Shown: positions 35,793 through 37,100 of the stretch, piece by piece
Layout of the letters: the number at the start of each line of letters is the position of its first letter
Position numbering within the stretch: the first letter of the stretch is position 1
Assembly: GCF_014191985.1 (NCBI RefSeq)
Contig: NZ_JACHXI010000018.1
Span: 1 to 64,000 of the forward strand
DNA from: Azomonas macrocytogenes
GTDB taxonomy: Bacteria > Pseudomonadota > Gammaproteobacteria > Pseudomonadales > Pseudomonadaceae
Reading direction: 5' to 3'
Length of the DNA stretch: 64,000 bases
The notes under the pieces: model-generated
Database searches by the model: none
Told to the model about the DNA's origin: nothing
What the model saw: only the letters and a program-made list of their open reading frames with translations
Made by a program: the position numbers and the translations under genes

Positions 35793-36194
35793 CTACTTCA
35801 CCACCTTCAAGCTCGGACGACCAGTGGGCCGGGAACCGGCAACATCCGAAGGAGCACTATCGTCAGGCCCATCACCTTCCGGCTCAGGCTCGGTTTCGAA
35901 CACCATGCCTTGCCCGTTTTCCCGAGCATAGATGGCCATGACAGCATTGACGGGAATATAGAGCTCATGTGCGACGCCACCAAAGCGCCCTTCGAAACTC
36001 ACCGCATCATTATTCATCTGCAGTTGACGAATAGCGTTCGGAGAAACGTTCAGCACAATCTGCCCATCATTCACATATCCGGAGGGTACCTGCACCTTTG
36101 GGTGCTCGGCATCTACCAGGAGATGTGGCGTACATTCATTGTCGACAATCCACTCGTACAAGGCACGAACAAGGTAGGGTCGGCTTGAAGTCAT
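35793..36194 (-). CDS. sspB: ClpXP adaptor SspB
   Basis: A 133-residue adaptor that delivers ssrA-tagged proteins to ClpXP. The N-terminal fold (RPYLVRALYEWIVDNECTPHLLVDA) and the middle (IVLNVSPNAIRQLQMNNDAVSFEGRFGG) are typical, followed by an acidic linker (about 98-115) and the short ClpX-binding tail RPSLKVVK. ATG at 36194 with GAGG upstream; a GTG directly before it is ignored. Its usual upstream partner sspA is missing here apart from a short scar. Confidence 0.95.
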   Translation of the reverse strand: MTSSRPYLVRALYEWIVDNECTPHLLVDAEHPKVQVPSGYVNDGQIVLNVSPNAIRQLQMNNDAVSFEGRFGGVAHELYIPVNAVMAIYARENGQGMVFETEPEPEGDGPDDSAPSDVAGSRPTGRPSLKVVK

Positions 36195-36206
36195 CACAAC
36201 GGCCTC

Positions 36207-36328
36207 TTAGCGAATCTGTCGCTCGATATCGGAAAACCAGCCTTTCAGGCCTGGCACTTGTCGCGCCATGACCGATTCCTGCAGCATCCGATATCCAGTT
36301 GCAGGACAGGCAATTGTCGCCAGTCTAC
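36207..36328 (-). pseudogene. sspA: Degenerate C-terminal remnant of sspA
   Basis: Between petC and sspB, where Pseudomonas carries sspA, only about 180 bases remain. On the minus strand one frame reads WRQLPVLQLD, close to the SspA segment WRLPVLGIEL. A second frame, offset by one base and directly following, reads ARQVPGLKGWFSDIERQIR and then a stop, like the SspA end (FARxxFxxSLSxxERxMR). Order, spacing and position fit a gene that lost its 5' two thirds and suffered a small deletion with frameshift. Matches are short and from memory, so confidence is moderate. Confidence 0.5.
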
Positions 36329-36374
36329 CAAGACCTGCGCCCTGAACCAAAAACACGCTAAAAACCAGACCATA

Positions 36375-37100
36375 TCAGCGGATATCCCGCCAATATTCTC
36401 TTTTGAGCAAATAGGCAAAAACGAAAAACACCAAAAGAAACAGCAGTACGTAAGTGCCGATACGCCGGCTCTCCAACCTGGACGGATCGGCGGAATAAGC
36501 TAGGAACGTCACCAAGTTCCTGACCATTTCATCATAGTCGCTCTGACTCAGCCTGCCGGTACCCGGTATGACAGCCAGGCGCTCGCAAGCCCCGTCATTC
36601 CCGGCAGGCGCACAGGTAAGTACCTGGCGTCCCTGCAGAGGAGCAAGCACATGCGGCATTCCCACATTCGGAAAAACCGTATTGTTCACACCATACGGGC
36701 GGGTGGAATCCTCGTAGAAACCCCGCAGATAGGTATAGAGCCAATCGCTCCCGCGCACCCTCGCGACCAGGGTCAGATCCGGCGCTCCGGACCCGAACCA
36801 GGCCTTGGCATCCGCAGACTGCATGCTGGACTCCATGTGATCGCCAACCCTCGCGCCAGTGAATACCACACTCTTCAGCAAGATCGCCTCGGGAATACCA
36901 AGATCAGCAGCCACTCGTTCGTAACGTTGATAACGGGCACCGTGACAACCCATGCAGTAATTGACAAAGGTACGCAAGCCATCCTGCATCGCCGCCTTGT
37001 CCTGCAGATCCAGCGCAACCCTGTCGAGCGACAGAGTGCCATCAGCCAGAGACAGGGCAGGCAGAAGCACGACGATCAGCATGATGAAAAACCGTTTCAT
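36375..37100 (-). CDS. petC: Cytochrome c1 of the bc1 complex
   Basis: A 241-residue protein with a signal peptide (residues 1-19, ending SLA-D), the heme c motif CMGCH near residue 51, and a C-terminal membrane anchor (about 215-235, YVLLFLLVFFVFAYLL). It carries electrons from the Rieske protein to periplasmic cytochrome c. The ATG at 37100 overlaps the petB stop (ATGA). About 66 extra in-frame residues upstream lie within petB and are rejected. Confidence 0.96.
   Translation of the reverse strand: MKRFFIMLIVVLLPALSLADGTLSLDRVALDLQDKAAMQDGLRTFVNYCMGCHGARYQRYERVAADLGIPEAILLKSVVFTGARVGDHMESSMQSADAKAWFGSGAPDLTLVARVRGSDWLYTYLRGFYEDSTRPYGVNNTVFPNVGMPHVLAPLQGRQVLTCAPAGNDGACERLAVIPGTGRLSQSDYDEMVRNLVTFLAYSADPSRLESRRIGTYVLLFLLVFFVFAYLLKREYWRDIR

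Follow-up and report, generated by a model that had tools for sequence, protein, structure and literature searches.

Gene order between petC and sspB

The window, a stretch of 64,000 nucleotides from a contig of Azomonas macrocytogenes, carries on its minus strand rplM, rpsI, petA, petB, petC and sspB, in this order as read from its open reading frames. In relatives the sspB orthologs adjoin sspA, and in Pseudomonas aeruginosa sspA (PA4428) adjoins the cytochrome c1 gene PA4429 (PMC3750012). In the window, petC is followed directly by sspB with a spacing of 180 nt (petC end at 36375, sspB ATG at 36194), and a 177-nt interval (36198-36374) stands where sspA would be expected, as the first-pass annotation had noticed. 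The features of the locus are collected in Table 1. The sspA remnant occupies the syntenic place of the gene on the same strand, and 12 nt separate its TAA from the ATG of sspB. A scan of the interval found no sigma-70-like promoter; it returned one terminator-like stem after petC, which is no more than expected by chance.

Table 1. Features around the petC-sspB junction (window coordinates).
Feature	Position	Strand	Evidence and remarks
petC, cytochrome c1	36375-37100	-	Intact; open reading frame and alignment with petC of relatives, in which it sits upstream of sspA
Probable sspA remnant, upstream piece	36302-36331	-	Codons resembling those for LVDCCLLPIL of intact SspA; frame differs from that of the C-terminal piece
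sspA remnant, 3' end including stop TAA (36207-36209)	36207-36270	-	Reads MARQVPGLKGWFSDIERQIR before the stop; a typical intact end reads MERQFAREAFQASLSAVERDMR
sspB, ClpXP specificity-enhancing factor	35793-36194	-	Intact; NCBIfam NF008764, 220 bits (cut-off 191)

No SspA ortholog was found in the 4.09-Mb, 99.99%-complete genome with a profile built from 30 SspA proteins, for which the best match had an E-value of 5.1e-6. With the same profile, true SspA orthologs gave values of 1e-101 to 1e-117, and control genomes 1e-101 to 1e-107. When E. coli SspA was used as the query, the best match in the genome reached only 3.3e-4. The protein behind the 5.1e-6 match is a 219-residue member of the GST superfamily. 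For this protein the SspA model NF007016 gives 31.6 bits (cut-off 314), and maleylacetoacetate isomerase gives a better score; a genuine Stutzerimonas SspA scores 262.7 bits on NF007016. Relocation of the gene, which had at first been left open beside its loss, is ruled out by the profile search, which finds no intact sspA at any other place; the gene has therefore been lost. The genome is a draft in 70 contigs, so an assembly artefact was also considered; however, the petC-sspB junction lies inside a 90-kb contig, the completeness is as given above, and independent genomes of the genus lack sspA at the same junction, which leaves this explanation hardly credible.

Homology of the interval to the 3' end of sspA

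In a multiple alignment, the petC-sspB interval falls on the 3' portion of intact sspA genes. The 60-61 nt or so before the TAA align with the 3' ends of these genes at up to 76% identity, a value reached over 59 aligned nt with a Stutzerimonas gene (L111). The same gene provides the best local match, which covers its last 50 nt, the end of the match coinciding with the stop codon of the gene. Since nhmmer, run with an sspA nucleotide profile of 88 sequences, reported no match in the interval, local and end-anchored alignments were compared with shuffled sequences instead. Aligned from the stop codon, the last 60 nt obtained a mean score of 5.2 against 44 intact genes, as compared with -9.1 ± 2.1 for dinucleotide shuffles (z=6.7), and none of 1,000 shuffles reached the observed score. 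Of 3,210 places anchored at a stop across the two strands of the window, the TAA ranked first. We conclude that MARQVPGLKGWFSDIERQIR is the modified C terminus of a protein that ended like MERQFAREAFQASLSAVERDMR.

Chance matches had been suspected first, since the congeners carry no such scar. On that explanation SspA was lost, the peptides mean nothing, and the interval is an ordinary spacer, left when the ancestor of the genus lost the gene cleanly long ago. The nhmmer result would agree with it, as would the sspA-free spacers of G001, G003 and G005 (genus g3), in which the same alignment tests detected no remnant. The end-anchored test, however, speaks against it both by the shuffles and by the rank of the true place within the window, and the match ends at a stop just upstream of sspB, precisely where intact sspA ends; we thus reject coincidence, to which we assign a very small probability.

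The first-pass annotation had taken two peptides to be consecutive parts of the SspA C terminus. The second of these is well supported, being significant and in the right place, strand and order. The first, WRQLPVLQLD, is weaker: the 99 nt farther upstream reach weak significance, 5 of 300 shuffles doing as well in local alignments, and its register is also different from the one proposed. The peptide resembles WRLPVLGIEL superficially, a stretch that lies beside LVDCCLLPIL in SspA, but the commonest registers place TTGGTAGACTGGCGACAATTGCCTGTCCTG (LVDWRQLPVL, 36331-36302) on the codons for LVDCCLLPIL itself. The two pieces do lie in different minus-strand frames and in the right order, so that the description of a frameshifted scar was accurate. 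The stretch from LVD to the stop measures 122 nt, as against 156 in intact genes; 34 nt are therefore gone, which shifts the reading frame. Between the petC stop and LVD there are 43 nt, where intact loci (L009, for example) have roughly 540, and about 500 nt have therefore been deleted. About 150 N-terminal codons of sspA are absent.

The absence of an intact copy, the synteny and the 3'-end homology together identify the petC-sspB interval as a decayed remnant of sspA with a probability of about 90%, the homology extending over a short stretch of about 60 strong and 30 weak nt. In this lineage one or more deletions took away approximately 500 nt, beginning directly behind petC and reaching to around codon 152 of sspA, as well as approximately 34 nt within the remaining 3' part; what was left has substitutions at all codon positions. 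The cell thus does without SspA modulation of RNA polymerase and sigma-70, keeping the ClpXP adaptor SspB, and sspB must be transcribed without the sspA region, either through transcripts that continue from petABC or from a promoter that our scan did not recognise.

The locus retains the plan of the sspA-sspB operon of Pseudomonas and E. coli, namely the petABC-(sspA)-sspB order, an intact sspB and an sspA remnant in place, but sspA is reduced to a frameshifted 3' stub and the genome has no functional SspA. Like an ordinary deletion pseudogene, it has lost most of its coding sequence, bears substitutions at all codon positions and has received no replacement gene. It differs from one in that nearly the whole family carries the lost gene, and in that related genomes seem to have lost sspA separately. 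The type of decay is thus ordinary, while the gene affected is a near-universal regulator. Literature searches turned up no account of sspA loss in Azomonas among the titles listed.

Distribution and timing of the loss

SspA is present in 241 of the 248 Pseudomonadaceae genomes searched (97%), some of them near 2 Mb. The seven without it comprise all four genomes of this GTDB genus, G005 from a separate genus, and two fragmented assemblies. At the order level, 93 of 97 good genomes have SspA and the absences are sporadic, occurring in three other families; G272, G273 and G279 are good-quality genomes from these families without SspA. In 106 fetched loci of other genera, an SspA frame stands next to sspB. 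The only sspB loci without one are that of the window (L005) and those of G001 (L017), G003 (L021) and G005 (L022); in the fourth member of the genus, G002, neither petC nor sspB was matched. The loss is thus shared by all members of the genus that were sampled, apparently through separate events, and is no peculiarity of the window genome.

In a tree of six proteins, the window genome, G001 and G003 group together beside Stutzerimonas (support of 100 for the joint clade), and G005 falls outside their clade with weak support; the placements of G005 and G003 are poorly supported (52-84), and the G003 contig is short. Between the window genome and G001, 64% of fourfold-degenerate sites differ, which is near saturation, so that a remnant free of constraint since before their split should no longer be recognisable. 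The scar has nonetheless stayed up to 76% identical to intact genes. At third positions it is as diverged (0.485) as functional genes are among themselves (0.481), and only its first and second positions are raised, at 0.33 and 0.22 as against 0.16 and 0.12. Most simply read, sspA would have been functional after the split and lost here later. Although the estimate draws on about 60 sites and optimised alignments, we consider it rather likely that the gene was lost after the separation from G001 and at least twice in the genus, and probably again in G005. Parallel loss is apparently the best reading of the genus-wide absence of SspA; its rival is early shared inactivation followed by slow decay in one lineage.

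A single ancestral inactivation could also have left a 3' segment that was kept for another role, such as sspB translation start or expression, or as a leader ORF of 20 codons. SspA is indeed absent from all sampled members of the genus, and the 20-codon ORF opens with an ATG preceded by an AGGAA-like ribosome-binding site and leaves 12 nt between its end and the start codon of sspB. However, G001, G003 and G005 have not conserved the segment, which has accumulated indels as well as first- and second-position changes; a functional 20-codon ORF was rejected on this lack of conservation, and the explanation as a whole is improbable, if less so than a chance match.

Tolerance of the loss and genus context

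In E. coli, RNA-polymerase-associated SspA lowers sigma-70-dependent transcription, and in P. aeruginosa strain CF149 overexpression of SspA raises AlgU and alginate (PMC3750012 and references in it). In P. aeruginosa, the E. coli sspA gene is able to stand in for algQ, according to studies that PMC3750012 cites. The window genome keeps RpoS, AlgQ and SspB; a joint loss of rpoS was accordingly rejected, as this gene is present. No alginate exporter (PF13372) was found in the window genome (G000), G001, G003 or G005, and it is present in the Azotobacter-type genomes G019 and G057. One could speculate that the loss of SspA is tolerated through a relaxed need, AlgQ still being present and the exporter absent. 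This idea of compensation is weak, because the exporter is also absent from G009 and G018, which have kept sspA, so that a link between the loss of sspA and that of alginate export is not exclusive, and because G001 has neither SspA nor AlgQ. G001, a 99%-complete genome, has no protein of the Rsd/AlgQ family (PF04353). That the need for SspA went together with the alginate programme is possible but unproven. Tentatively, and with the odds somewhat against it, repeated and independent losses of SspA in Azomonas and at least one other genus of the Pseudomonadaceae, with SspB and RpoS staying, would point to a shared physiological change, for example the giving up of an alginate or stationary-phase programme, that made SspA dispensable.

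The interest of the locus lies in which gene decays and in the recurrence of its loss, decay as such being ordinary, and the apparently separate losses in related genomes are modest but real evolutionary news. Lineages without SspA, with the gene caught in decay in one of them, offer a natural separation of the roles of SspA and SspB and allow the functions that require SspA to be approached by comparison.

Azomonas is a free-living nitrogen fixer. The relevance to virulence that had been suggested for the loss of SspA does not apply here, since the markers of this genome point to Azomonas. A five-residue insertion near the C terminus of SdhA is described as specific for that genus (PMC10797017); the SdhA frame has 596 residues as against 591, with a shared insertion near the C terminus, in the window genome and G001 only. 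G002, assigned to the same GTDB genus, is without the insertion. Azomonas is described as fixing N2 with alternative nitrogenases and as having genomes of 3.3-4.1 Mb with a GC content of 52.0-58.6% (PMC10797017). Three NifH-type genes exceed the curated cut-off in both the window genome and G001, and the genome sizes (4.09 Mb and 3.3 Mb) and the GC content of the window (56.7%) all fall within the range of the genus.
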